Assembly: GCA_015709495.1 (NCBI GenBank)
Contig: CP054189.1
Coordinates: 2,108,001-2,172,000 of the forward strand
Source of the DNA: Chthonomonadaceae bacterium
Lineage (GTDB): Bacteria > Armatimonadota > Fimbriimonadia > Fimbriimonadales > Fimbriimonadaceae
Reading direction: 5' to 3'
Length of the DNA stretch: 64,000 nucleotides
Position 1 is the first letter of the stretch, and each line of letters opens with the position of its first letter. Below the pieces are notes generated by a model. That model had not been told where the DNA came from. It did not search any database and was given only the letters and a program-made list of their open reading frames with translations. Position numbers and translations under genes: made by a program. This document shows, one piece after another, positions 6,567 through 33,413 of this stretch.

Positions 6567-7776
6567 CTGTTGCCTGAGCGGCTGCGGCGATCAGTCCGGC
6601 GGCGAGGAGCATCCGCAAAGCCGTCGGAAGATAGTCGTAATGGGCGAACGGCTTCAGCCATGCCATCGGCAAGAACGCGACGAGCGAGGCGACCCAGCCG
6701 AAGGCAAGGACGCTCGGGCGGGCAACGGCGGCCCGCAAACCCGCGAGATTGGAGGCAACGTTCAGCGCGAGCGAGTAGGGAAGGGACGTGAACCCTACCG
6801 CCCACCCCAGCGCGAGGCTCGAACTGCCCAGCCAAAGCGCCTGGCCCGCCGGAAACGCATATCCGAGGAGCGACATTCCCACGCCAGGACCCGACCGGAA
6901 CTGCTGGCTCTGGTAGCCAGAGGGCGAGAGGGGAACCAGTTGGGTTCGGAGAACCGCATAAGCGCCGACCAACGCGATCGCGCCTGCGACGATCGGCCAA
7001 GCCGGCCTCTTGCCGTCGAGCCAGAAGTGCGCGGCGACGAGCGCGAGGAGGCCCGGCGCGACGACCGCTTGTTCGTAGCATCCGAGCGCGAGCGCCATAA
7101 GGCCGAAAGACACGAGGATCCAACGCGCCCGAGACTCACCCGTCTTTCGGAGGCGTTCGAACCTAGCGTACGCGGAAAGGGCGCCCAGGAGGAAGACCGT
7201 CATAGAGGATGCGGTCCGGCCCGGCAGCCACGCTTGAACGCCGCCGTAAAAGGGCGAAAGTCCGCTCGCGGTGGCGGCTGCGAAGACCCACAGCAGCGAG
7301 GCGTAGGCGGACATTTTCAGGTTTTCGGGACGGAGAACGACAGCGAAGGCTGCGACGATCGCGGCGAGGGTCAGCCCGCTTCCAAACGGAATGGGGCGGG
7401 CGAAGTGCAGGTTGGCAAACAGCAGGCTCGCGCCAGCGGCAAGGAACGGGGAGTCTGTGAGTTCCCGGATGAACCAGAACAGCGCGAGCACGGACAGAAT
7501 GCAAAGGGCCGTGTTCGTCGCGCCGAATCCCGCGCCGTCTCTGCCCCACAACGCGAGGTCCCATTCGAACAGCAGCGTGGAGACGGGCCGGTAGAAGTGG
7601 TTCTGGAGGGGCCAGTCACCGAGGAACCAGCTGAGGGGCGAAGATCGTTCTTCCAGAGCGTTCAGGAGCACCGCCGTATCGGAGTCCTGCAACAGCGAAG
7701 AACTCGTGGGGCTCTGCAGGGCGATCCAAGCGCAGGCAAGCACGGCGATCGCAAAACTGGCTACCCACCGCTTCAC
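6490..7776 (-). CDS. polytopic membrane protein, GT-C-like
   Basis: A 428-residue integral membrane protein with about ten hydrophobic helices. After the first helix there is an acidic luminal loop (LLQDSDTAVLLNALEE) and a stretch HFYRPVSTLLFEWDLALWG, a layout that resembles membrane GT-C glycosyltransferases and O-antigen-associated proteins using lipid-linked sugars. I do not recognise a precise family and this call rests on overall layout. The C-terminal tail is Arg/Pro-rich and is the part that overlaps the 3' end of pheT on the other strand, so it may be poorly conserved. Monocistronic in this window; it is divergent from the thioredoxin gene at 7887. Confidence 0.6.
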   Translation of the reverse strand: MKRWVASFAIAVLACAWIALQSPTSSSLLQDSDTAVLLNALEERSSPLSWFLGDWPLQNHFYRPVSTLLFEWDLALWGRDGAGFGATNTALCILSVLALFWFIRELTDSPFLAAGASLLFANLHFARPIPFGSGLTLAAIVAAFAVVLRPENLKMSAYASLLWVFAAATASGLSPFYGGVQAWLPGRTASSMTVFLLGALSAYARFERLRKTGESRARWILVSFGLMALALGCYEQAVVAPGLLALVAAHFWLDGKRPAWPIVAGAIALVGAYAVLRTQLVPLSPSGYQSQQFRSGPGVGMSLLGYAFPAGQALWLGSSSLALGWAVGFTSLPYSLALNVASNLAGLRAAVARPSVLAFGWVASLVAFLPMAWLKPFAHYDYLPTALRMLLAAGLIAAAAQATATAISRRAIPAPLRPDPAPGSLPRR

Positions 7777-7886
7777 GGCAGAATTATGGCCCTCTCTTCA
7801 GGGCAACTCGGAGCAAACCGGGAACCCTTTTCCTTCGTCAAGCATAATGATGGTAGTAAGGCGCTGGGCGCCAGGAGGTATACGAA

Positions 7887-8408
7887 TTGAAATTCACCGC
7901 AATCATTGCCGCGACCGGGGTGCTGGCGATCGGAATGGCGACCGGGACTCAGGACACCAAGAGCTTCGTTGGAAAGCCGATGCCGAAATTCGCGCTGACC
8001 ACCGTTCAAGGCGCATCGCTCACCAATGAAAACCTGAGAGGCAAACCCGTGCTGTTCGACTTTTGGGCCACTTGGTGCGGCCCCTGCAAGGCTGCGGCGC
8101 CGCATGTGCAGGCGATCTACGAGAAGTACAAGGCGCGGGGTCTCGTCGTGATCGGCGCGAACGTGTTTGAAGGCCGAGGCGGTCAGCCAACGGGTCCCAA
8201 GCCCGCTCTGGACTATGCCACCGAGCATAAGTACACGTACGCGTTCACCTTTGACAGCGACGCGCTTGCCAAGGCGCTCGCGGTGAACGGTATTCCGACG
8301 TTTGTGCTGATGGACCCGAAGGGCACGATCGACAGCGTGTGGGTCGGTTTCGGCAAGAACACGGGCGAGCAGATCGAAGCGCGCGTCCAAACGATGCTTC
8401 CAAAGTAA
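7887..8408 (+). CDS. TlpA/ResA-like secreted thioredoxin
   Basis: A 173-residue thioredoxin-fold protein with an N-terminal signal peptide and the redox motif WCGPC in FDFWATWCGPCKAAAPHV, followed by the cis-Pro loop (NGIPTFVLMDPKG). The family (AhpC/TSA-Redoxin/TlpA) reduces periplasmic or extracytoplasmic disulphides, often for cytochrome c maturation. Start is TTG at 7887, supported by a perfect AGGAGGT at 7873-7879; no in-frame ATG lies near. A strong intrinsic terminator at 8495-8522 separates it from the flagellar operon, so it is probably a single-gene unit. Confidence 0.88.
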   Translation: MKFTAIIAATGVLAIGMATGTQDTKSFVGKPMPKFALTTVQGASLTNENLRGKPVLFDFWATWCGPCKAAAPHVQAIYEKYKARGLVVIGANVFEGRGGQPTGPKPALDYATEHKYTYAFTFDSDALAKALAVNGIPTFVLMDPKGTIDSVWVGFGKNTGEQIEARVQTMLPK

Positions 8409-8494
8409 GTTGGAGCTTTCAAGGTTCGGGTACGGGTCGCTCGCGCCTCCGATGGCCGGCGGCCCGTTCTCTATTGGAATGCGGAAGTTGTCGC

Positions 8495-8522
8495 TCCACT
8501 GTAAGGGTCCAGTGGATTTTTT
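8495..8522 (+). terminator. intrinsic terminator after the thioredoxin gene
   Basis: Inverted repeat TCCACTG (8495-8501) / CAGTGGA (8510-8516), 8-base loop, followed directly by six T. It ends transcription of the thioredoxin gene 18 bases before fliL begins. Confidence 0.8.
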
Positions 8523-8540
8523 CCGAGAATATCTGCGTCC

Positions 8541-9116
8541 ATGTCCGAAACCGTCGAAGAGACACCCAAAAAGAAGGGTGGCCCCAAGTTGCCGATCCTG
8601 CTGGCGCTCGTGATTTTGCTTGCGGGCGGCGGCTACTTTGCGTTTAAGCTCAAGTCCTCGGGAAAAGCGGCCGAAAAGCCCAAGGTCGAACTGGGCGAAG
8701 TCGTGGCTCTGGACGAGTTCCTCGTGAACCTCAACTCCGGAACCGCCTACTTGCGGGCCGAAATCTCGCTTCAGCTCCGAAAGGGCTACGAGAAGGCGGA
8801 CTTCGACAAGAACCTCGCCGCCGTCCGAGACTCCATCGTCATGGAACTCTCCAGCAAGCAAATGGGCGAGGTCACCACCATGGAGGGCAAGATCGCGCTG
8901 AAGCGGCGGCTCGCCGAAGCGATCAACGCGGTGCTGGCGATTTCTGAACCCGAAAAGGAAGCCAAGCCCGAACCCAAGAACGGGCCGAAAGCGAAGAAGT
9001 CCGCGGAGGAGACAGCCCAAGCGTCCTCCCAACCTGGCCCACCGAAAAATCCCGACTGGGATTCAGACGAAGGCCCCGTGCTCCGTGTCTTCTTCACCGG
9101 GTTCACCACCCAGTAG
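8541..9116 (+). CDS. fliL: flagellar basal body-associated protein FliL
   Basis: A 191-residue FliL: cytoplasmic tail, one membrane helix (about residues 17-37), and a periplasmic domain with VVALDEFLVNLNSGTAYLRAE and the following LRxxYEKADFDKN and IVMELSSKQMGEV stretches characteristic of the family. FliL surrounds the stator near the MS ring and supports motor torque. A Lys/Pro/Glu-rich low-complexity segment (about 140-175) is inserted before the C-terminal VLRVFFTGFTTQ strand, which is longer than usual. First gene of the fliL-flhB run, though 213 bases and a possible internal promoter separate it from fliM. Confidence 0.9.
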   Translation: MSETVEETPKKKGGPKLPILLALVILLAGGGYFAFKLKSSGKAAEKPKVELGEVVALDEFLVNLNSGTAYLRAEISLQLRKGYEKADFDKNLAAVRDSIVMELSSKQMGEVTTMEGKIALKRRLAEAINAVLAISEPEKEAKPEPKNGPKAKKSAEETAQASSQPGPPKNPDWDSDEGPVLRVFFTGFTTQ

Positions 9117-9264
9117 CCCGCTCCCAGCATCCCTCGCCCCCGTTGCACGGCCCGGCCCGGCCGGTCGCAATGCTTTGAGGCGGAGCCGCATCGTCAATCG
9201 CCCTTTTATCTTCAAGCTGTTTGTGAGCTTTTTCCGTCGGCGCACTGAGGAAATTGCCGGAGGT

Positions 9265-9272
9265 GCCGATAA
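9265..9272 (+). promoter_or_regulatory. sigma-28-like -10 element upstream of fliM
   Basis: GCCGATAA, identical to the consensus -10 of flagellar sigma-28 promoters, 57 bases upstream of the fliM start. The expected TAAA -35 is not present at the right spacing (TGAG instead), so activity is uncertain. The bases that follow (CACACTGATGAGCCC) resemble those after the much better promoter in front of flgB at 45845 (CACTGATGGGCCC), which argues for a shared signal. Confidence 0.45.
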
Positions 9273-9329
9273 CCACACTGATGAGCCCTCAAACGCCTCG
9301 TTCGAGGGAGCTTCAATGGGAGGAACTGG

Positions 9330-10343
9330 GTGTCGGAAATCCTTTCGCAAGAAGAGATCGCGTCGCTGCTGAACGCCGCCGAACAAGCGTCGGACGAGAT
9401 GCCCGCGCCTCAACAAGCCGAGCCCAACGCCTCTCGCGCTTCAGGCTTGCGAAGCCGAACTAGGGCCCCTATTGCCTACGAGCTGTACGACTTCCGAAGG
9501 CCCGACAAGTTCAGCAAGGAGCAACTCCGCACCCTTCAGATGCTGCATGAGACGTTCGCGCGACTTGCCGGTTCGTCGCTTTCTGCGTACTTGCGCACCC
9601 CCGTGAATATCGACTTGATCAGCATCGAGCAGGTGCCGTTCGAGGAGTATCTCCGAAGCATCAGCCAATCGGTCTTCAATATCCTCTCGCTTCCGCCGCT
9701 TTCGGGCCAAGCCGTACTTGAACTCGAGTTCGGGATCGCCTTTACGATGGTGGACCGGATGCTCGGCGGCCCAGGCAGGGCCATCTCCCGCTCGGTCTTG
9801 ACCGACGTCGAACGGCCTTTGGTCCGGCAGTTGGTCGAAAGGCTCTTTGCCGGGCTGAAGTCGGCCTGGGAGGGTGTGGTCGTCGCCGACCCCACCATCG
9901 AGGGAATGGAGACAAGCGCGCAGTTCGTCCAAATCGCCCCGCCCAACGACATCGTCGTCACGATTCTTTTCGAAGTTCGGATCGGAGACCAGCGAGGTGC
10001 GATGAGCCTCTGCATCCCCTATCTCCTTCTGAAGCCCATCACCACCAAGCTCAGCGCGCAGAAGTGGTTCGCCACGGGCCCCCGACGAGCCAACCATTCG
10101 ACCCGCAACCAAATCACATCGCACATCTCCAGCGCGAGGGTCGAATGCGCCATTCGACTTGGGGAAGCCAAAATGCGGACCCGCGAAGTGCTCGGGCTGA
10201 AGGTCGGTGACATCATCAGGCTCGACCAAGGCGCGACTGATCCCGTGTGCCTTTACGTGGGGAACGTACCCAAGTTCGAGGGTCGCCCCGCGCTCCAAGG
10301 CTCCAAGCTCGTTTTTGCCATCTCCCACCCTGTCAGCAACTAA
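9330..10343 (+). CDS. fliM: flagellar motor switch protein FliM
   Basis: C-ring protein FliM, 337 residues. The N-terminal CheY-P binding segment (EILSQEEIASLLNAAE) is followed by a linker, the CheC-like middle domain (YDFRRPDKFSKEQLRTLQML, LDxxFGG-type block as TMVDRMLGGPGR) and the C-terminal SpoA/FliN-like domain (LKVGDIIRLDQ). It binds phospho-CheY and FliG and switches rotation direction. Start is GTG, with GGAGGA about 6 bases upstream. Followed after 9 bases by fliN. Confidence 0.95.
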   Translation: MSEILSQEEIASLLNAAEQASDEMPAPQQAEPNASRASGLRSRTRAPIAYELYDFRRPDKFSKEQLRTLQMLHETFARLAGSSLSAYLRTPVNIDLISIEQVPFEEYLRSISQSVFNILSLPPLSGQAVLELEFGIAFTMVDRMLGGPGRAISRSVLTDVERPLVRQLVERLFAGLKSAWEGVVVADPTIEGMETSAQFVQIAPPNDIVVTILFEVRIGDQRGAMSLCIPYLLLKPITTKLSAQKWFATGPRRANHSTRNQITSHISSARVECAIRLGEAKMRTREVLGLKVGDIIRLDQGATDPVCLYVGNVPKFEGRPALQGSKLVFAISHPVSN

Positions 10344-23410: not shown

Positions 23411-24592
23411 ATGACGGTTACTTTCAACTTAGCGCTTGCTTTGCTGGCCCTGCAGTCTCCGGCTCTTTCCCTCGAAGATGGCGCGCAAGTCGCGCTTGCT
23501 TTCGCCGAGCGGGCGCGCTTGGGGGCTGCGGGAGTCGCCGTCGGAAGTGCCGAGCCGCTTACCCTTCGCTCCAGCCGACTTCTTCCCGGGAGCCAAGAGG
23601 CCACCTACCAATTAGGCACGGCAACGGTTCGGGTGGACCTGATCCGTCGGTCTGTTGCCTCGTTCGCAGAGGACTTCAGTGGGGTAAGTCTGGCGTGGAG
23701 CGAGAGCGAGCGGTTGGACGAGCACCAGTTGGAATCGCTCGCGTCGGAACTTCTTCGGGATGCCGGGATTAGCGGTCGTGCAGTCGTCCATCATGCCGAT
23801 CTCTATGGGGCCAACGGGCCCGAGGGGTCGATTTGCATCCATGCTCTGCCTACCTCAGGCGGCATTCCCTTTGCCTACGACTGGGTGGTTCTCCTGACGG
23901 TGGAGCACAGGTCGGGCAGGCTGTACCAACTGACCCGGCTGAACTCCCACCTTCCTGAGGTCCCCCCTCAAGCGTCGCCCGACCTTGGGCCCGGTGCGGC
24001 CCGCCTCGCGATGGCTTCCGAGATTCTGGTGGCTCGCCCGCAGGTCACCCTCCTCGCGGCCGCGAAGGACGCAAGGCTCGTGTACTGGGCGCCCAGGCAT
24101 CCGGACTCCTACACGGTGAACCGGTTGACCGAAGCGCAAATCCAAATGGGCCGCGAGAACAAGGCGATTCTTGTGTATTGGGCCTACTTCCTGGCAGAAT
24201 CGCTTGCGCCGAACGAACCTGGGCCAGCGTTTGAGGCGTTCCTCGACGCACGAACAGGGCGCCTGCTGGCGCTCGAAGCCTTCGAAGGGCCTTGGGCTGG
24301 ACTGTCCCTTGAGGACCAACTTCGGCCCTTCGGCTGGGACCTGGGGCCGGGGCCTATTGCGGCGACGGTAGGGGGTAAGACCCATGAACTCTCCCATGCG
24401 GACGTGCTCAAGGTGCAGCAGGCATCCCCTAACGAAGCGGGGGTGCCGGTCCTGCTCCAGCGCGCCCGCCTGATCCTCAACGCGCTCTACTACCCCAAAG
24501 CCAATCTACTCTCGGTCGGAGAAGGTAAGCTCCGGTCGTTCGGTCGGCCGAGTTCCGACCTCGAGGCCGTATTGAAGGGCCGAGAAAGGTGA
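23411..24592 (+). CDS. secreted protein with shared C-terminal module (copy 1)
   Basis: 393-residue protein I do not recognise. It has a signal peptide (to about residue 20), a region of about 280 residues with PepSY-like phrases (VEHRSGRLYQLT at 164-175, EAFLDARTGRLLALE at 275-289), and a C-terminal module at residues 306-380 (begins PFGWDLGPGP, ends KLRSFGRP) that is almost identical to the end of the gene at 25854. The rest of the two proteins is not alignable by eye apart from repeated xDxxTGxLLxLE-type phrases. First gene of a three-gene cassette around the CHAT-like gene. The module might be a binding or anchoring domain; no function can be assigned. Confidence 0.75.
   Translation: MTVTFNLALALLALQSPALSLEDGAQVALAFAERARLGAAGVAVGSAEPLTLRSSRLLPGSQEATYQLGTATVRVDLIRRSVASFAEDFSGVSLAWSESERLDEHQLESLASELLRDAGISGRAVVHHADLYGANGPEGSICIHALPTSGGIPFAYDWVVLLTVEHRSGRLYQLTRLNSHLPEVPPQASPDLGPGAARLAMASEILVARPQVTLLAAAKDARLVYWAPRHPDSYTVNRLTEAQIQMGRENKAILVYWAYFLAESLAPNEPGPAFEAFLDARTGRLLALEAFEGPWAGLSLEDQLRPFGWDLGPGPIAATVGGKTHELSHADVLKVQQASPNEAGVPVLLQRARLILNALYYPKANLLSVGEGKLRSFGRPSSDLEAVLKGRER
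24326..24547 (+). repeat. 222-bp direct repeat, copy 1
   Basis: Encodes residues 306-380 of the first cassette protein. Matches 26787-27008 with only about a dozen mismatches by eye, several of them clustered around the codons for QQASPNE. The match starts abruptly at CCCTTCGGCTGGG and ends at TTCGGTCG. Confidence 0.9.
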
Positions 24593-24654
24593 GGTTGTTA
24601 CGTTTTTTCGCCAAACCTCTTGATGTCTCTCCTATAACGTGCTAAGGTACTTGC

Positions 24655-25881
24655 ATGAGGTGGAATCGTCTCCTCGCAGGGCTTTGGGCAGTATCCTTGC
24701 TGCCCGCGTTGGTTTTGGGCCAGCAACAGCCGCCGTTCAACCAGGCGGGGGTTGGGTATGCGGACTATGGATTCATTATAGATATCGTGGGCTTCAGCGC
24801 GAACAACCAGAAGGTGAGCGGCACCAAGGTGGAGTTCACGGCGATCGCGGAAACGAGCAAGAACACGCCCCAATGGCTGATCCAAGAACCCCCTCCTCCC
24901 GGCTTTGCCCCTTACAACTACGCCTACATCAGGGAGTACCGGCTCACCCTGGGCGGCGAGGTGCTGGTGGATATTGTGAATCAGAACAAGACGTTCGTCA
25001 GCAGGAAAGTCCGGTTCGCGTCCACTCACTTCGCGCACCTTGCAAATGTTCCCATCCAGGTACGGGCTGTGGCCGTGTTCACTTGCACTGATCCCCAAGG
25101 GTACCAGAGGCCGGACGATCGCGTGGTGGAACTCTCCCATACCGTAACCGTCCAAGCCTATAACAAGGGGACTTTCCTAGCGACGGTGGAGAGATACGAA
25201 AACGACCAGTTCGTGGTGGACCCGAGTTCGGCTGAAGCGGAGATCGCCGCGGAGTGTGTGGGGAATGCGATCCCCGGCACCCAGGCCCTGAGGCACGGCG
25301 TCGATCCCGGCACCGTGTCCGCCGCGCAGGCGCTCCGGGCTGCGGACATCGCTCCCAAGTTCAAGGACAGCACGACGTTCTTTACGGTAACGCACGGCCT
25401 TCAATCGCAGGGCCTTCGGGCTTCTCATACGGACGATATGTTGTACTCGTGGATCGAGCAGCAGGTTCATCAAAACCGGACGGTACCGCTTTACAATTTG
25501 GTGGTCCTGATCGCCTGCAACGGAGTCGGCAACGGCACGTCGGGCAGGACTGGCGATGCGTTCGGTGTTTCGGATGGCAACAACGGCAGGCCACCCGCGG
25601 TGAACCAATGCGTCATTGCCTTTTGGCCAGATGTGGGATCCAAGACAAACAAGGAAAACCTGCCCAAATGGGTTGAGGCGTTTTATGATTTGCTCGCAGA
25701 AGGATTTACTGTAGGGGCTGCCGTGACAGAAATCTATGAAAGAGGGATTCGCTTAGTCGGTCCCAATAGTTCTAACGCAATCACGCCAATGAAGATCGGT
25801 GATGTAAAGACCAGGTTGAAGGGATACTATTCAGCCGAGGAGGGTACAACGACGTGGTACATTATACTGTCTTCGCAATAA
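24655..25881 (+). CDS. secreted CHAT/caspase-like protein
   Basis: 408-residue exported protein (signal peptide to about residue 22). The C-terminal half has the layout of a CHAT domain, the caspase-fold peptidase family: a strand ending in the catalytic-type His (FFTVTHG, His247), then LYNLVVLIACNGVGNG with the candidate nucleophile Cys288. This is followed by NQCVIAFWPDV and WVEAFYDLLAEGFTVGAAVTEIYERG, matching the CHAT pattern of a Trp-Pro strand and a helix of the fyxxLxxG-xxxxxAl type. The N-terminal half (25-200) is probably a beta-sandwich domain. It lies between two secreted proteins sharing a C-terminal module and overlaps the next start by 28 bases. Assignment is by pattern only; the CHAT call is moderately sure, protease activity is inference. 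Confidence 0.6.
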   Translation: MRWNRLLAGLWAVSLLPALVLGQQQPPFNQAGVGYADYGFIIDIVGFSANNQKVSGTKVEFTAIAETSKNTPQWLIQEPPPPGFAPYNYAYIREYRLTLGGEVLVDIVNQNKTFVSRKVRFASTHFAHLANVPIQVRAVAVFTCTDPQGYQRPDDRVVELSHTVTVQAYNKGTFLATVERYENDQFVVDPSSAEAEIAAECVGNAIPGTQALRHGVDPGTVSAAQALRAADIAPKFKDSTTFFTVTHGLQSQGLRASHTDDMLYSWIEQQVHQNRTVPLYNLVVLIACNGVGNGTSGRTGDAFGVSDGNNGRPPAVNQCVIAFWPDVGSKTNKENLPKWVEAFYDLLAEGFTVGAAVTEIYERGIRLVGPNSSNAITPMKIGDVKTRLKGYYSAEEGTTTWYIILSSQ

Positions 25882-27059
25882 CTGTTGCTTTAGGCATGCA
25901 CTCGGTTCCGTCGCAACTGGTATCTGAGACACAGGCAGGTCGAATTGCACAGTCATTTGTCGAATTCGTGAATAGTGAGCAATCTGGAGCATCCATCGTT
26001 GCTGTTTTCGATGCGCGCTTGCCAAATGGTCGACTTAGCACGTCTAGTAAATCTTGGGCTTTCGACGGTCAAGGAGTTCGGGTATATGTCGATCGACGAA
26101 GCGGTAGGGTCAAGGTATATGACGCCTACGGTTTGCCGCATCTGAACTGGGTCAAACTGAGTAGCATTGGTCAAATGGTCGACAATAGTCTGTGTCTGCG
26201 CATTGCACGGGCCGTCTATCAGAGGGCAGGTTATCATGAAACGCTGACGATGTTCCGACGCGAGCAACTCGTTACTGCAGACGGAATCTACGGCCCTGAG
26301 GTTCACTTTGTCCGAAACATCGACGGAATCGAGGTGGATTCGACCCTTGGAGTATACTTCCGGTTCCACGCTACATCGGGCCAAGTACTCGAGGTTAGGA
26401 TCGATCCTGAACCTGTGATGCCGCCCGTCCTGACGCCGAGAATCTCTTTACAGGATGCCAGGAGAACCGTTCATGCGGCAATCGCGCGGCACATTGGGCC
26501 GGTAGTACTGTCCGAAGTCGATTGGAAGCCGCTCCGTCTTCGGGCGTGGTATCCAATGGAGCTGAACTTCATCTACCAAGACCTTCCGTTTGACAGGCCG
26601 GCTTATGAGCGGGAGTATAGGACCGTGTTGGTGTACGACGTTTACTACGAAGACGCGAACGCGAGACCGCACCCGGGCAGCGGCTTTCGTCCCGGATGGT
26701 ACATCCGAGTTGACGCAATAACTGGGAAGCTTCTCGTAGTAGAGAAGACAGGTACTGGATTTGGGGCGTCGACTTCCAAACCCGTTCCCTTCGGCTGGGA
26801 CCTGGGGCCGGGGCCGATTGCGGCGACGATGGGGGGTAAGACCCATGAACTCTCCCATGCGGACGTGCTCAAAGTGCAGGCGGGATCTCCTAGCGAAGCG
26901 GGGGTGCCGGTCCTGCTGCAACGCGCCCGCCTGATCCTCAACGCGCTCTACTACCCCAAAGCCAATCTACTCTCGGTCGGTGAAGGTAAGCTCCGGTCGT
27001 TCGGTCGACCCGATGAGGAACTGAAGAAAGCCCTGTTGGCCTTGGCCGCAAAGGAATAG
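25854..27059 (+). CDS. secreted protein with shared C-terminal module (copy 2)
   Basis: 401-residue protein, unrecognised, starting at a GTG that overlaps the CHAT-like gene by 28 bases (ATG at 25896 is an alternative). Signal peptide, then PepSY-like phrases (VYVDRRSGRVKVYDAY, FHATSGQVLEVRID, RVDAITGKLLVVE) suggesting two or three PepSY-type units, and a C-terminal module at residues 312-386 nearly identical to that of the protein at 23411. PepSY domains often inhibit or chaperone secreted proteases, which fits the neighbouring caspase-like gene (inference). The N-terminal 900 bases use AT-richer codons than the surroundings, while the shared module is GC-rich. Confidence 0.75.
   Translation: MVHYTVFAITVALGMHSVPSQLVSETQAGRIAQSFVEFVNSEQSGASIVAVFDARLPNGRLSTSSKSWAFDGQGVRVYVDRRSGRVKVYDAYGLPHLNWVKLSSIGQMVDNSLCLRIARAVYQRAGYHETLTMFRREQLVTADGIYGPEVHFVRNIDGIEVDSTLGVYFRFHATSGQVLEVRIDPEPVMPPVLTPRISLQDARRTVHAAIARHIGPVVLSEVDWKPLRLRAWYPMELNFIYQDLPFDRPAYEREYRTVLVYDVYYEDANARPHPGSGFRPGWYIRVDAITGKLLVVEKTGTGFGASTSKPVPFGWDLGPGPIAATMGGKTHELSHADVLKVQAGSPSEAGVPVLLQRARLILNALYYPKANLLSVGEGKLRSFGRPDEELKKALLALAAKE
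26787..27008 (+). repeat. 222-bp direct repeat, copy 2
   Basis: Second copy of the module repeat at 24326-24547, encoding residues 312-386 of the third cassette protein. The sharp return from AT-richer to GC-rich sequence coincides with its left boundary. Confidence 0.9.
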
Positions 27060-27173: not shown

Positions 27174-28406
27174 TCAGTAGCGGTAGTAGCTACTGCCAAA
27201 CGCCGTGATCTCGTAGCCTCGACCTGACTCGCGCAGGCGGTATTCGTGATACACCGAATCTGATCGCCCCCAAGGGTCCACGAAATCGTGCCTTGCGACG
27301 ATTTCGACCTCACCTCGGTTCCTCCGAACGCTGACGATGTTGTACCGGCGCGTATCGGACTGGTAGATGTTGTCGAGCATGAGCTCGTAGAAGGCGTCGG
27401 AATCCATAGAATAGGCGTACCGGCCGTCGATCAAGATGTCCACTCGGCCGCGCAAGGGAACGAGTCGGCTGATCGCCCTACGGTCCTGCCGCTCGAACGC
27501 GTCCACAAGGTCCTGAATGGCGTAATCGAGATCGTTGTAAGAGTAGTAAGATGAATAGCTCCTGATAGGCCTCCAAGTGTAATACGAACCTTGGAACGGC
27601 CCTAGGTTAATCGTCAGAATCGTCACGTATTGGCGGTTCACATATCCCGGAAGGTAAGGATAGTAGTACCAAGGTGAGATGTGGCAAACTGTCTGATAGG
27701 GGTTGAACACATAGTGCGGGAACCAGAAGTAGTCGTCGCACCAACCCCGATCATAGTGGTAGTAGCCAACCCTTATGGGAGAGTTTCGCACTGCCCGGAC
27801 CTTCTCTTCCCGAAGCACCTGATTGGCGAGCGAGCCTGAGAACACGTCGATCGGCGCGCGGTTCAAGACGTTGGCATCGGGGCGCGAGGCCTGAGTGATC
27901 AGGTTGTTGTTCGAGCCGTAGTTGCGTCCGTCGTTGCGGATTCGGCCCGGAGGGTTCACGGTCTGGTTGCCCGTATTGGCTCGATCAGCGTCGTTTCGGA
28001 CTGGCGGCCGCTCGTTCTGGTTGCCGGTCTTGCCGTCATTTCTCGAAGGGGGCGGCGCGGTGCGGGTCGGCGGGTCCTGCCGACTCGGAGGAGGCGTTTG
28101 CCTTGAGGGGGGAGGCGTCTCCCGAGCGGGCGGTGGAGTCTGCCGAGCAGGGGGCGGCTCTTGCTTCGCTGGTGGCGGGGTTTGCCTTGCGGGCGGCGGG
28201 GTCTGTTTACTCGGCGGAGGGGTCTCTCGCGCAGGGGGAGGCGCCTGCCGCGAAGGAGGCGGTTCTTGCTTGGCCGGAGGCGACGACCGTTGAGGGGGCG
28301 CCTCGCGGGTCGGAGGCTTCCGACTCGGCGGGTCGTCCGCGATCGCGAGCGAAAGTCCAAGAATCCCAGCAAGGGAAATCGTGCCTAATCTACGAATCCA
28401 CATCAT
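27174..28406 (-). CDS. secreted Pro-rich repeat protein
   Basis: 410-residue exported protein (signal peptide to about residue 23). Residues about 25-125 are a low-complexity tract of PPPxRQT / PPPxKQE / PPPARET units, about a dozen in tandem, followed by an Asn/Arg-rich linker. A C-terminal domain rich in Tyr (SYSSYYSYNDLDYAIQDLV, GRVDILIDGRYAYSMDSDAF) resembles a periplasmic NTF2-like or DUF-type fold. The Pro-rich tract may span peptidoglycan or be extracellular. AGGGG ribosome site just before ATG 28406; another ATG follows at 28403. Function unknown. Confidence 0.75.
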   Translation of the reverse strand: MMWIRRLGTISLAGILGLSLAIADDPPSRKPPTREAPPQRSSPPAKQEPPPSRQAPPPARETPPPSKQTPPPARQTPPPAKQEPPPARQTPPPARETPPPSRQTPPPSRQDPPTRTAPPPSRNDGKTGNQNERPPVRNDADRANTGNQTVNPPGRIRNDGRNYGSNNNLITQASRPDANVLNRAPIDVFSGSLANQVLREEKVRAVRNSPIRVGYYHYDRGWCDDYFWFPHYVFNPYQTVCHISPWYYYPYLPGYVNRQYVTILTINLGPFQGSYYTWRPIRSYSSYYSYNDLDYAIQDLVDAFERQDRRAISRLVPLRGRVDILIDGRYAYSMDSDAFYELMLDNIYQSDTRRYNIVSVRRNRGEVEIVARHDFVDPWGRSDSVYHEYRLRESGRGYEITAFGSSYYRY

Positions 28407-28556
28407 CTTGCCCCTGTGCGCGTCGCCAGTTGGCATTGCGCTTCTTACAGTGTACAACCATTCGACGCGCCTTCCCGCCCAGAGTTACCGCGAGGTAAGG
28501 GGGTCCCAGCATCCCCTACAGGAAGAGTCCCGAATTTGCCAACATGGAGAGTGTCT

Positions 28557-29595: not shown

Positions 29596-30747
29596 ATGAA
29601 GTGCATTACGCTCGTCGGCCTGGACTGGTTGGGCGAGCCGGGCGAAGGTTCGATCCTCGATCCGATGCCGCCGACTCTGGAAGTGGTGGCCAACCGGAGC
29701 GCGGCCTTTCGGCTGGCTCCCCTTCGGCCGGAGTGCGACCTGCGGCCACCGCTCTTGGGCCTCGCAGGATTCACTCAACGACTTGCGGAAGGGCCGCTCC
29801 GAGTCGCCGCGTTCGAAGCGCACACTCCGCCCAAGTCGGTTCCTCTTTGCCTCGACCTACTTTCGCTCGAGGACGGCGGGATTACCACGCCGCCCCACGT
29901 GACCCCGGAACTCGGGTCGAAGGTAATTGAGCTTGCGGAACGACTCCAAACTCCGAAGCTGCGCCTGATCGAAGGCGAACGCGCGCATCACGCCGCGCTG
30001 TGGCTGGAGGGGAGCCTCGACCTATCTCTAAGGACGCCGGACGAGGCAATCGAGCGGGGCCTGCGACCTTCGCTTCCGGAGGGGGACGGAGAACCGATGC
30101 TACGCAGGTTCATCGACGACTCCATCAACCTGTTGGGCGAGCAGGAGTTCAACCTGCGCCGAATTGATGAGGGGCTTGCGCCAGTGAACCTGATCTGGCC
30201 GTGGGGGCAGGGCTTTCCCCCAGTGATCCCCAATCTCGCCCTTCAGAGGGGAACCCCTTGCCATGTCTTGAGCCCCGCCCTCGGTCTCCGGGGACTCAGC
30301 AAAATGTGCGGGTATACGCACGGCCCAACCTCTGGAACGAACGCGGGGCTCTCCCCACCGTTTGGCGAATGGCTGAAAGCTCACGATTCGCATCCGAACA
30401 CCTTGATCGTCGACGACTCGATTTCGAGTTGCAGAAAGGCGGGGCGGATAGAGGAATCCCGTTGGATCATTCGCGAATTCGATGAAGCGTTCCTTGAAGC
30501 GTTGATGAAGATGCGGGAGGACGACCCATTCCGCCTGACATTGCTCTGTCCGATCACCCTAGGGAGCGGCGAGTTCGGCGGATTGGGTCTGGTCTACGAA
30601 TCCCATTGGAGCAGTAGGAACGTCGTACCCTTTAGTGAGGAGGGCATGAGCGAAGATCGCTTGCCCATCCAGTCGCTCGCCGAGTCCATCGAACGGTCCT
30701 TGTCATGCACGCCCATTTCCGCAACCTTGTTTTCGCATCCCTCCTAA
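29596..30747 (+). CDS. phosphoglycerate mutase (ApgM)-like, metal ligands degenerate
   Basis: 383 residues related to the archaeal-type cofactor-independent phosphoglycerate mutase (alkaline phosphatase superfamily). The family blocks are seen as ALWLEGSLDLSLRTPDEAI, LPEGDGEPMLRRFIDDSINLL and LAPVNLIWPWGQG. However, the N-terminal Asp-Gly and Thr-Pro-Asn-x-Asp region and the C-terminal Asp-His metal-binding clusters (expected D-x3-H and DH-T-P) are not recognisable. It is probably not an active mutase, and might be a regulatory or repurposed relative. Its end overlaps the next gene by 43 bases, suggesting coupling. Confidence 0.65.
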   Translation: MKCITLVGLDWLGEPGEGSILDPMPPTLEVVANRSAAFRLAPLRPECDLRPPLLGLAGFTQRLAEGPLRVAAFEAHTPPKSVPLCLDLLSLEDGGITTPPHVTPELGSKVIELAERLQTPKLRLIEGERAHHAALWLEGSLDLSLRTPDEAIERGLRPSLPEGDGEPMLRRFIDDSINLLGEQEFNLRRIDEGLAPVNLIWPWGQGFPPVIPNLALQRGTPCHVLSPALGLRGLSKMCGYTHGPTSGTNAGLSPPFGEWLKAHDSHPNTLIVDDSISSCRKAGRIEESRWIIREFDEAFLEALMKMREDDPFRLTLLCPITLGSGEFGGLGLVYESHWSSRNVVPFSEEGMSEDRLPIQSLAESIERSLSCTPISATLFSHPS

Positions 30748-33413
30748 CGGGGGCGGCGGCCTGTCATGCCCAACTCACGGCTTCAGAGAAGGATGGGTTG
30801 GTGGATGCCTTGTTCTTGGCCGGATTGAGAATCGAGGACCTCCGCGTGTATCCGTCGCAGCCGCAAACTAAGCATCGATTGGCGCTGCTCGACCAGGCGC
30901 CCGCGAACCCGCTCGAAGCGGTTGCGAACGTCCAAGGGATGCATGAAATCGCCATGCGCGCGCCGAGTTCGCTCCTCGAAACTGCCATTTTGCGGACCTT
31001 CGGCGAACCGAAGCGCTACGGGCTGGAGAGCCCCGTAGACCGCCCTGTGGTCCCCAACGAGATCCCTGAGTCGTTGCAGCCAATCGTGCGCGATCTGGCG
31101 GTGGCGGTCGCCGTAGCTAATGCCCACGTTCGAATCGCTCTCTCGCGCCTTTCGCCCCACGAGCAAAGGGAACTGATCGAGGGCCTTCCGCAGATCGCGT
31201 CACCCGGGGAGTCGTTCGAGTTTGCAAGGCAGAAGCCTCCCTCGCTGGAGCGCGCTTGGGAGCTTCTGGGCCGTGCCGATCTCGACCGCATCCTCTTCGC
31301 GGCCCATATCCTCGCTCTTGGCGTCGAACGCCGCCTGCCCGACCTCAGAAGGGCCGCGGGAGTGACCGATTGGGTGGGAGAGGTTCGCTTTCTTGCAGGG
31401 GGAATGCCCGTGATCGTCGGCGGCAAGGGGCCGAATACCTACACGGATCGGTCGGCAGTCCTGCTCATCGACCTCGGAGGCGACGACTCCTATTCGGGGC
31501 GGCATGGGGCCGGTCCCGGGTATGCGTCAGTTTTGATCGACGTTTCGGGCAACGACACCTACCATGTCCCCGATTTGAGTCTGGGAGCGGGACTCTTGGG
31601 GATCGGCTTCGCTTATGATCTTGCGGGTGATGACATTTATCGAGGGAAGTCGCTTTGCTTGGGCGCAGGGCTTGCGGGCGTCGGGTTGTTCGTCGACGAA
31701 TCTGGCGACGACGCGTATCAGGCGGGCTCGATGACTCAGGGGTTCGGGATGTTCGGGGTCGGTATCTGCAAGGATTCCCGAGGGGCTGATTCCTATCGCT
31801 CGGCAGCGCTTTCGCAAGGGGCGGCGCGGACCCTCGGATTCGGCTGGCTGATCGACGTCGAAGGCGACGACCAGTACGTTTCCTCGGGAGATCGCCGCCT
31901 GAGCGTCCATCCGATGGTGCCTAGGCTCTCCTGCTCGCAAGGGGCGAGCTTGGGTTTTGAGAGCGTTTCCGGAGGGTTCGCCGGTGGGATCGGCCTGCTT
32001 TCGGACCTTGCGGGGAACGATTCTTACCGGGCGGAGGCGCTGGCGCAAGGGGCCGCGATGTGGCACGGCATCGCCTCGCTTTATGACGCGAAGGGCGACG
32101 ACAGTTATCGGGCGGCCCGACAAGCTCAGGCTTCAGCGGACGAGGGCTCGATAGGGATGTTCTTCGATCTCGGAGGGAGCGACCTGTATTTCTCTGAATT
32201 CGGATCCTCCCAATCTTGTGCGGTAGGGCGATCGTTCGCTTTGCTGCTCGACCGCGAGGGGAACGACGCCTATTTGGGGCGATGGAACTCTCCTGCCTTC
32301 GCATCGCGCGGCGGGCTGGCGATTCTCCTCGATGCGCTGGGTGAGGACATCGTCTCAGGTTCTGCGGGTGTGGTTCCCTATCTCAGCGCCGAAGGGGCGA
32401 TCGCGGTGTTCCTCGACCTCGCAGGAACCGACCAGATCGGGGCCCCCCCGGCACTCTCCGGCATTCAGGTGAGGCCTGGCCAAAGCGTGAGCTACGACGT
32501 TCAAGCGAGCCTTGCCGCGCCGTTTTCGACGTCGGAGACCGCGGCGGGCCCGGTACCCGGTTCACGGCAATTGACGAGCGCGAGCGAACTGTCCGATCTC
32601 GTCGCGGCGCTGGGAACCCCACCCGATCCCTCGTTCCCCGCCTCACGCGTCGAAGCCATCAGGAGCCTGGTGGCGATGGGTGTTCCTGCGGTTCGATGGA
32701 TCGGGGAAAACCGCCTCACTAGACTCACCCGCGCAGAGATGTCGGGGTTCGTTGCGGTGGTGGACGGCGTCGGTGTGCCTGCCCGCGAACTCCTCGCCTC
32801 TTGGGTGGGGAACCCCAGTGAGGAGGTCGCGCGGGCGGCGCTCTGGGCGTGTTTGGAGGGTGGCTTCGAGGAAGCGGTCCCTCACCTTGCCGCGGCTTTC
32901 GACCGGTCGAGCCTTAGGTTGCTCGCCCTCGAAGCCGCTGGGCGACTCAATGACGCCAAAGCTGCGCCCAGACTGAACCTCCTTTGCGCGGACCCCGACC
33001 CAGCGGTTGCTTTTCGGGCGATGGAAGCCTTGGCGCGGATGGGGGAGTCTTCGGCGATCGGAACTGCCGACGCGCTTTTGGCAAGCTCCAATCTTCCGCT
33101 TCGGCAGTCCGCTTGGGAGTTGCTCTCTCAGTTCTCCGACCATGTTCGCCGATCGGCGCCAGCGATGATCGCAAGTGGAGATGCGCTTCGAGCTAGGGCG
33201 GGGATCCGCCTCCTTGCTAAGGTCGGCGATGCCGAGGCGCTGCTTGTGATCGCTCGGGCGCTGGACGATCCGCGAACTGGCGTGAAGGTCGAAGCGTTGC
33301 TCGCCCTCGAAGGCAGGTGCCCGCCCGAATTTCGTCCGGTGATCCTCAGGCTTCGCCAGGACCCCGACGCGAGGGTGAGGGCGGTGGCGCAAGCCACGGA
33401 CCCCGGACGGTAA
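30705..33413 (+). CDS. secreted repeat-solenoid plus HEAT protein
   Basis: 902-residue exported protein (signal peptide to about residue 22). Residues about 248-584 contain around twelve 27-residue repeats of the form LLxDxxGxDxYxxxxxxQGAGxxGxG, e.g. LLIDLGGDDSYSG, FAYDLAGDDIYRG, LLSDLAGNDSYRA, LLLDREGNDAYLG. Asp-rich turns on a regular pitch suggest a calcium-binding beta-solenoid. The C-terminal 260 residues are HEAT-like (VARAALWACLEGGFEEAVPHL, DPDPAVAFRAMEALARMG, ALDDPRTGVKVEALLALEG). Overlaps the ApgM-like gene by 43 bases. Function unknown; surface scaffold or matrix role is possible. Confidence 0.8.
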   Translation: MHAHFRNLVFASLLTGAAACHAQLTASEKDGLVDALFLAGLRIEDLRVYPSQPQTKHRLALLDQAPANPLEAVANVQGMHEIAMRAPSSLLETAILRTFGEPKRYGLESPVDRPVVPNEIPESLQPIVRDLAVAVAVANAHVRIALSRLSPHEQRELIEGLPQIASPGESFEFARQKPPSLERAWELLGRADLDRILFAAHILALGVERRLPDLRRAAGVTDWVGEVRFLAGGMPVIVGGKGPNTYTDRSAVLLIDLGGDDSYSGRHGAGPGYASVLIDVSGNDTYHVPDLSLGAGLLGIGFAYDLAGDDIYRGKSLCLGAGLAGVGLFVDESGDDAYQAGSMTQGFGMFGVGICKDSRGADSYRSAALSQGAARTLGFGWLIDVEGDDQYVSSGDRRLSVHPMVPRLSCSQGASLGFESVSGGFAGGIGLLSDLAGNDSYRAEALAQGAAMWHGIASLYDAKGDDSYRAARQAQASADEGSIGMFFDLGGSDLYFSEFGSSQSCAVGRSFALLLDREGNDAYLGRWNSPAFASRGGLAILLDALGEDIVSGSAGVVPYLSAEGAIAVFLDLAGTDQIGAPPALSGIQVRPGQSVSYDVQASLAAPFSTSETAAGPVPGSRQLTSASELSDLVAALGTPPDPSFPASRVEAIRSLVAMGVPAVRWIGENRLTRLTRAEMSGFVAVVDGVGVPARELLASWVGNPSEEVARAALWACLEGGFEEAVPHLAAAFDRSSLRLLALEAAGRLNDAKAAPRLNLLCADPDPAVAFRAMEALARMGESSAIGTADALLASSNLPLRQSAWELLSQFSDHVRRSAPAMIASGDALRARAGIRLLAKVGDAEALLVIARALDDPRTGVKVEALLALEGRCPPEFRPVILRLRQDPDARVRAVAQATDPGR
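31450..32455 (+). repeat. about twelve DxxGxDxY coding repeats
   Basis: Tandem degenerate repeats of about 81 bases (27 codons) inside the gene at 30705. Invariant positions are Asp, Gly, Asp and Tyr, with a Gly-rich second half; repeat six (around 31850-31990) carries an insertion of about 20 residues. Confidence 0.8.

Follow-up and report, generated by a model that had tools for sequence, protein, structure and literature searches.

What does a bacterium do with a caspase-like protein that it exports, and whose gene lies between the genes of two other exported proteins? The question is raised by a locus at positions 23411-27059 of the window, the stretch of 64,000 nucleotides analysed here, which comes from the single-contig 2.90 Mb genome of a member of the phylum Armatimonadota. 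The first-pass annotation, made from the letters of the DNA, had placed three open reading frames (ORFs) on the + strand and read them as a cassette, in which a secreted CHAT/caspase-like protein (P2) is flanked by two secreted partners with PepSY-like phrases (P1 and P3). The three ORFs were indeed found at 23411-24592 (P1), 24655-25881 (P2) and 25854-27059 (P3). Our answer to the question is that P2 and P3 are probably a secreted CHAT-family cysteine protease and a cognate, propeptide-like partner that restrains it. P2 is best explained as the founding member of a family of exported cysteine peptidases of CHAT type, which spans the phylum and is undescribed.

P2 carries a conserved His/Cys pair

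The P2 gene and its predicted parts are as follows.

24655-25881, + strand: P2, predicted exported CHAT-like protein (clan CD type) of 408 amino acids, with signal peptide, immunoglobulin (Ig)-like domain and CHAT-type C-terminal half
24655-24720, + strand: signal peptide, about residues 1-22, read from the sequence
24757-25180, + strand: Ig-like beta-sandwich with FASTHF motif, about residues 35-175 (Foldseek; model strands with a predicted local distance difference test score, pLDDT, of about 55-83)
25321-25881, + strand: CHAT-type domain, about residues 223-408 (from the hhalign comparison of the P2 family with CHAT)
25393-25395, + strand: His247, predicted catalytic His, in THG (His in 65 of 66 homologues, one gap)
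25516-25518, + strand: Cys288, predicted catalytic Cys, in ACNG (Cys in 65 of 66 homologues, one Ser)

The N-terminus of P2 reads as a classical signal peptide (MRWNRLLAGLWAVSLLPALVLG-QQQ), and a hydrophobic N-terminal segment was present in 56 of 66 P2 homologues, compared with 106 of 441 other ORFs. The signal peptide, the His of THG, the Cys of ACNG and the Trp-Pro strand (FWPDV) with a helix behind it, all named by the first-pass annotation, were present in the protein. None of P1, P2 and P3 exceeded a curated Pfam or NCBIfam cut-off. The AlphaFold2 (AF2) model of P2, built from four sequences, had a mean pLDDT of 46.8; its Ig-like half was reasonable, and the Foldseek matches of that half were to SoxYZ and GH2 Ig-like domains only. 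The secondary structure of this poor model (pLDDT <50) has the order strand-then-His and strand-then-Cys, which proves nothing. Two other matches of P2 were set aside: a Pfam NIR_SIR_ferr match (E 0.0017, below the cut-off and in 1 of 52 family members) was taken as chance, and the thioesterases, which were the only PDB matches by phmmer, had E >0.6 and were rejected.

The family of P2 is both widespread and divergent. A search of 41 relatives with the single sequence gave matches in seven genomes, and in an alignment of seven homologues (18-39% identity) no more than 11 columns were invariant, H247, G248 and C288 among them. With a profile from this alignment, matches were found in 30 of the 113 genomes of the order, and a 52-member profile extended the family to 56 of the 291 genomes of Armatimonadota, many of them with several copies. 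In the 66 sequences that span the catalytic region, the single gap in the His column belongs to a truncated ORF; other strong columns are N170, P278, G350, G382-D383, Y392 and W401. The conservation of both residues among homologues, which had been proposed as a check, thus came out at 65 of 66 for each, and their placement was beyond chance. Further public genome contigs gave no match to P2 alone; with alignment A6 of the family they gave three loci, all duplicates of loci in two genomes already at hand (G088 and G028). P2 was not found in the viral contigs, phages and plasmids searched, so there was no sign of a mobile element. None of the 52 family members matched a PADLOC model and no defence genes were neighbours, and a role in phage defence was rejected.

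Two further loci of the family deserve mention. One (L098, G077:C1:1702000-1719000) holds four tandem P2-like genes, one of them with Cys replaced by Ser, and very divergent partners. The other lies in the genome of the window itself (L029, G000:C1:1554490-1560044) and holds two more P2-like genes, with PepSY-type genes downstream.

P2 is probably a relative of CHAT

The family profile was compared with those of the clan CD families by hhalign, for which the alignment of each Pfam family was made of its genomic matches within this phylum and the E-values are those of one-to-one comparisons. The best result was obtained with CHAT (94.4%, E 8.5e-8), in an alignment that pairs the His and the Cys of P2 with those of CHAT, and its C-terminal GD with the GD at the end of CHAT; the CHAT layout first read from P2 by eye is thereby borne out at family level. 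C25 came second (86.5%, E 4.6e-6), and the Pfam C25 model matched none of the 52 members at E 0.05. Profile similarity was low for C14 (10%) and C11 (0.4%). Reversed P2 gave 0.1% against all families and the P3 family 0.1-0.3%, and recognised relatives scored 59% (CHAT-C14), 38% (C25-C14) and 24% (CHAT-C25) on the same scale. The P2 profile also reached PF12770 loci in four genomes (G175, G200, G206 and G161; E 5e-8 to 1.5e-6), and the only PDB profile match of the family was a CHAT-domain protein (8tl0, E 0.1) with His and Cys aligned. P2 itself has no Pfam CHAT match. We take P2, from these profile comparisons, to be a probable relative of CHAT near the border between CHAT and C25; since its members lie below the PF12770 cut-off, it was filed as a CHAT relative and not as a member of PF12770. 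The genome of the window has no PF12770 match; it has five Peptidase_C14 (metacaspase-type) loci, e.g. C1:566239-566964, and one C11 gene.

A CHAT relationship at profile level only, with no known substrate and no structure for the catalytic half, would also suit a non-proteolytic envelope protein that has kept a CHAT-like fold for binding or assembly, with P3 as an accessory surface protein. We regard this as very improbable: in a family that is otherwise very divergent, conservation is strongest at His and Cys, a pattern that is hard to account for without catalysis.

P2 and P3 form a conserved unit

25854-27059, + strand: P3, predicted exported triple-PepSY, propeptide-like partner of 401 amino acids, with GTG start and C-terminal beta domain
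25854-25881, + strand: 28 nt shared by the P2 and P3 genes (homologous loci usually have an overlap too)

The overlap of the two genes suggests translational coupling. Of the 72 P2 homologues whose C-terminus is complete, 69 are followed immediately by a P3 homologue on the same strand, usually with an overlap; the control figure was 3 of 441 ORFs of at least 300 amino acids in the same loci. These same loci served to iterate the P3 profile, which raises its sensitivity, and with one iteration at E 1e-3 the pairing already stood at 36 of 52. It holds in other families of Armatimonadota as well. The co-occurrence of all three genes, which had been proposed as a check, was found in part: P2 and P3 are linked, and the three-gene cassette gave way, P1 being an orphan paralogue of the partner. 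Tandem arrays of two to four P2-P3 pairs were present at three loci (L089, L071 and L096). Among the three unpaired P2 genes, one (L244, in G169) has a P3-like domain upstream, at 7138-10332, fused to a long protein of fibronectin-type repeats.

The two proteins have also diverged together. Distances between the CHAT halves of P2 and the PepSY parts of P3 were correlated with r 0.388, a value to which tandem duplicates of whole pairs contribute. When partners were shuffled within genomes, which keeps the species history, r averaged 0.255 over 2000 trials and reached 0.374 at most. The observed value exceeds all shuffles and thus indicates partner-specific co-divergence beyond shared ancestry.

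P3 resembles metalloprotease propeptides and YpeB

The AF2 model of P3 (mean pLDDT 53.5) shows three units, each made of a helix and a sheet, and a beta domain at the C-terminus. Foldseek placed the C-terminal domain of YpeB first (5boi, E 6.4e-6, prob 1.00), the next match being at 5e-3. In pairwise comparison, the model gave VIA Z 8.9 with the propeptide of vibriolysin MCP-02 (root-mean-square deviation, rmsd, 5.2; 164 residues aligned), 8.8 with YpeB (rmsd 6.2; 204 of 226 residues) and 8.1 with the fungalysin propeptide (rmsd 5.0; 163 aligned), these being large rmsd values from a modest model. The sequence profile of P3 matched a PepSY-M4 propeptide (9vy3, E 0.002) and pro-elastases (E 0.02-0.05). 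Pfam PepSY (PF03413) was matched at E <=0.05 by 6 of 29 family members, at best with 1.3e-4, and by P3 alone with E 0.015, below the cut-off. The PepSY-like character ascribed to the flanking exported proteins thus holds for P3 at family level. Because sequence and fold evidence combine, we assign P3 a predicted PepSY/YpeB-type fold of tandem units, each a helix with an antiparallel sheet. A hydrophobic C-terminal segment followed by basic residues, which is likely to anchor the protein in the membrane, was found in 16 P3 homologues and in 1 of 66 P2 homologues. At the second locus of the genome of the window (L029), one PepSY-type partner has a transmembrane segment and a basic tail at its C-terminus.

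P3-type genes also persist alone: 15 had no P2 upstream and 9 had only a partial P2, against 3 of 72 P2 genes with no P3 downstream. This ratio is not unbiased, as some loci were chosen as P3 matches and some partial P2 genes may be assembly errors. At one locus (L110), P2 has shrunk to 100 amino acids, with the signal peptide joined to the C-terminal motif. In the genome of the window (L108, G000:C1:3562-5288), a C-terminal P2-like fragment stands directly before an intact P3-like gene, and the corresponding profile match in a second genome of the species, G085, is at C1:2745035.

These findings bear on a view of P3 as mainly a foldase or export chaperone, needed for active P2 and with little inhibitory role. 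The propeptides of M4 and M36 proteases are intramolecular chaperones as well as inhibitors. The similarity of P3 to them would fit such a role, as would its near-obligate position after P2. A chaperone alone leaves unexplained why P3 genes persist under purifying selection after P2 has been lost, and we rate this view as distinctly unlikely.

P1 and the variable locus

23411-24592, + strand: P1, orphan P3-type partner of 393 amino acids, orthologue of P3a of G085 (77% identity), with no P2 upstream
24326-24549, + strand: 3' repeat copy in P1 (C-terminal beta domain), common to P3 (94% identical to 26787-27010)
26787-27010, + strand: 3' repeat copy in P3 (94% identical to the P1 copy)

P1 and P3 are paralogues with 39% amino acid identity, and they share a repeat of the last 224 nt. 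Within each of the two genomes, the partners have homogenised C-terminal beta domains, with 94% identity here; the likewise similar copies in G085 (97%) suggest gene conversion.

The comparison with G085, one of two genomes of one species, showed both flanks to be about 98% identical at the DNA level and the cassette not to be; its gene order there is P2-P3a-P3b. P1 and the P3a of G085 share 77% of their amino acids (dN 0.156 and dS 0.80, the rates of nonsynonymous and synonymous substitution; ratio 0.19), and P3 and P3b share 58%. As judged from its coding sequence, P1 is under purifying selection. The two P2 proteins agree over about the first 75 residues and then fall to 12-33% identity per 40-residue block. 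The simplest account would be an ancestral array P2a-P3a-P2b-P3b, of which P2a was lost here and P2b in G085.

A locus of this kind calls to mind an effector and its immunity protein: P2 would attack the envelope of neighbours, P3 would shield the producer and its relatives, and an arms race, in strain antagonism or kin recognition, would have diversified both. The hypervariability between near-identical flanks would fit, with the dS of P1 far above that of the adjacent rho gene (0.056), and so would the exchange of all of P2 beyond its N-terminal 75 residues, the tandem arrays, the orphan P3 genes, the decayed P2 genes and the membrane anchors of some P3 proteins. On the other side, P2 consists of signal peptide, Ig-like domain and CHAT domain only, with no delivery domain or secretion partner seen; no secretion system was seen by eye around the loci, where no dedicated search was made; and the variability is that of two genomes. 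We consider this explanation unlikely. Given the hypervariability, inter-strain antagonism keeps some probability, and we hold as a tentative and rather doubtful possibility that Armatimonadota have an arsenal of exported CHAT-derived proteases, each matched by a PepSY immunity protein, which recombination and gene conversion would have diversified for strain-level antagonism or self-recognition.

Two neighbours of the locus were also recorded: an exported protein in which a long proline-rich repeat (PPPxRQT/ETPPP) lies close to the N-terminus (27174-28457, - strand), and a 902-amino-acid exported protein with many tandem GDDxY..GxG..L.D units followed by HEAT-like repeats (30705-33413, + strand).

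A proposed secreted protease with its restrainer

A secreted protease whose partner protects the producer fits the near-obligate partner, its likeness to propeptides and YpeB, the co-divergence, the persistence of the partner and its anchoring. In the mechanism that we propose, P2 would be exported by Sec and folded or positioned by its Ig-like domain, and its C-terminal half would carry the His/Cys dyad. P3, made from the overlapping downstream gene and built like a detached metalloprotease propeptide and also like YpeB, would bind its own P2 and keep it folded and inactive until P2 exits the envelope or P3 is removed, so that the producer is spared. P1 would be a partner that was kept when its own P2 disappeared. 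The analysis shows the export signals, the His/Cys of the whole family, the relationship to CHAT, the linkage and specific co-divergence of P2 and P3, and the survival of P3 genes where P2 is gone; proteolysis, binding, inhibition, a substrate and the geometry of the active site are what we infer. Several points weigh against this proposal. The CHAT half of the four-sequence P2 model has a pLDDT <50, and no single member exceeds the Pfam CHAT cut-off (best E 0.02, in 1 of 52 members). PepSY domains are not confined to inhibitors, and the targets of YpeB and of M4 propeptides are enzymes of other folds. That P3 persists where P2 is absent could point to a role of its own.

To our knowledge, bacterial CHAT/caspase-like proteins have been discussed almost only as cytoplasmic immunity effectors. 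Here, a CHAT-related lineage appears to be exported, multiplied and paired, phylum-wide, with a separately encoded propeptide-like partner. If protease and inhibitor are what P2 and P3 are, PepSY proteins, whose function is mostly unknown, would be tied to a caspase-class cysteine protease, and the two genes would make a simple system for testing the latency of a caspase-like enzyme. Because the locus is hypervariable within a species, the specificity of partner recognition is directly testable by partner swaps. If antagonism were the purpose, P2 would be a caspase-family weapon acting outside the cell.

Comparison with known systems

The P2-P3 family has no named model in Pfam, NCBIfam or PADLOC, in agreement with its first listing as a candidate for an undescribed system, and no description of an exported CHAT protein with a PepSY partner was found in the open-access literature searched. 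An exported protease with an adjacent inhibitor is of a known kind; what appears new, as judged from these three collections and that literature, is the combination of a CHAT-related enzyme with a triple-PepSY partner, diversified over a phylum.

With CHAT proteins (PF12770; e.g. Csx29/TPR-CHAT of Craspase and SAVED-CHAT), P2 shares the His-Gly and Ala-Cys motifs after hydrophobic strands, the motif order, the C-terminal Gly-Asp and a profile-profile score of 94%. It differs in being exported, in having an Ig-like fusion instead of TPR or sensor modules, in its PepSY partner, in the lack of CRISPR or defence neighbours and in having members below the Pfam cut-off. With C25 (gingipains, PorU) it appears to share the clan CD dyad, export, a GD motif before the C-terminal end and a profile-profile score of 86%; this similarity is lower than that to CHAT, and neither a long same-chain propeptide nor a type IX secretion signal was noted in P2.

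As a gene pair, P2-P3 can be set beside SleB-YpeB of Bacillus spores, for which we know of no hypervariability: there too the enzyme gene is followed in one operon by the gene of an exported multi-PepSY protein, although SleB is a cortex hydrolase and P2 is caspase-like. YpeB acts as an inhibitor of SleB in vitro, and SleB is not stable without it (PMC6660665). In SpeB-Spi, staphopain-staphostatin and Bfp-Bfi, the gene of a secreted cysteine protease is co-transcribed with that of a dedicated inhibitor, and Spi, the adjacent inhibitor of SpeB, is a propeptide analogue (PMC2873492). Those proteases, unlike P2, are papain-like (C10 and C47), and their inhibitors are small and of unrelated folds. 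The propeptides of the M4 and M36 proteases vibriolysin MCP-02 and fungalysin are like P3 in their PepSY-type fold, with the Z scores given above; they differ from it in being part of the protease chain and in acting on zinc metalloproteases.

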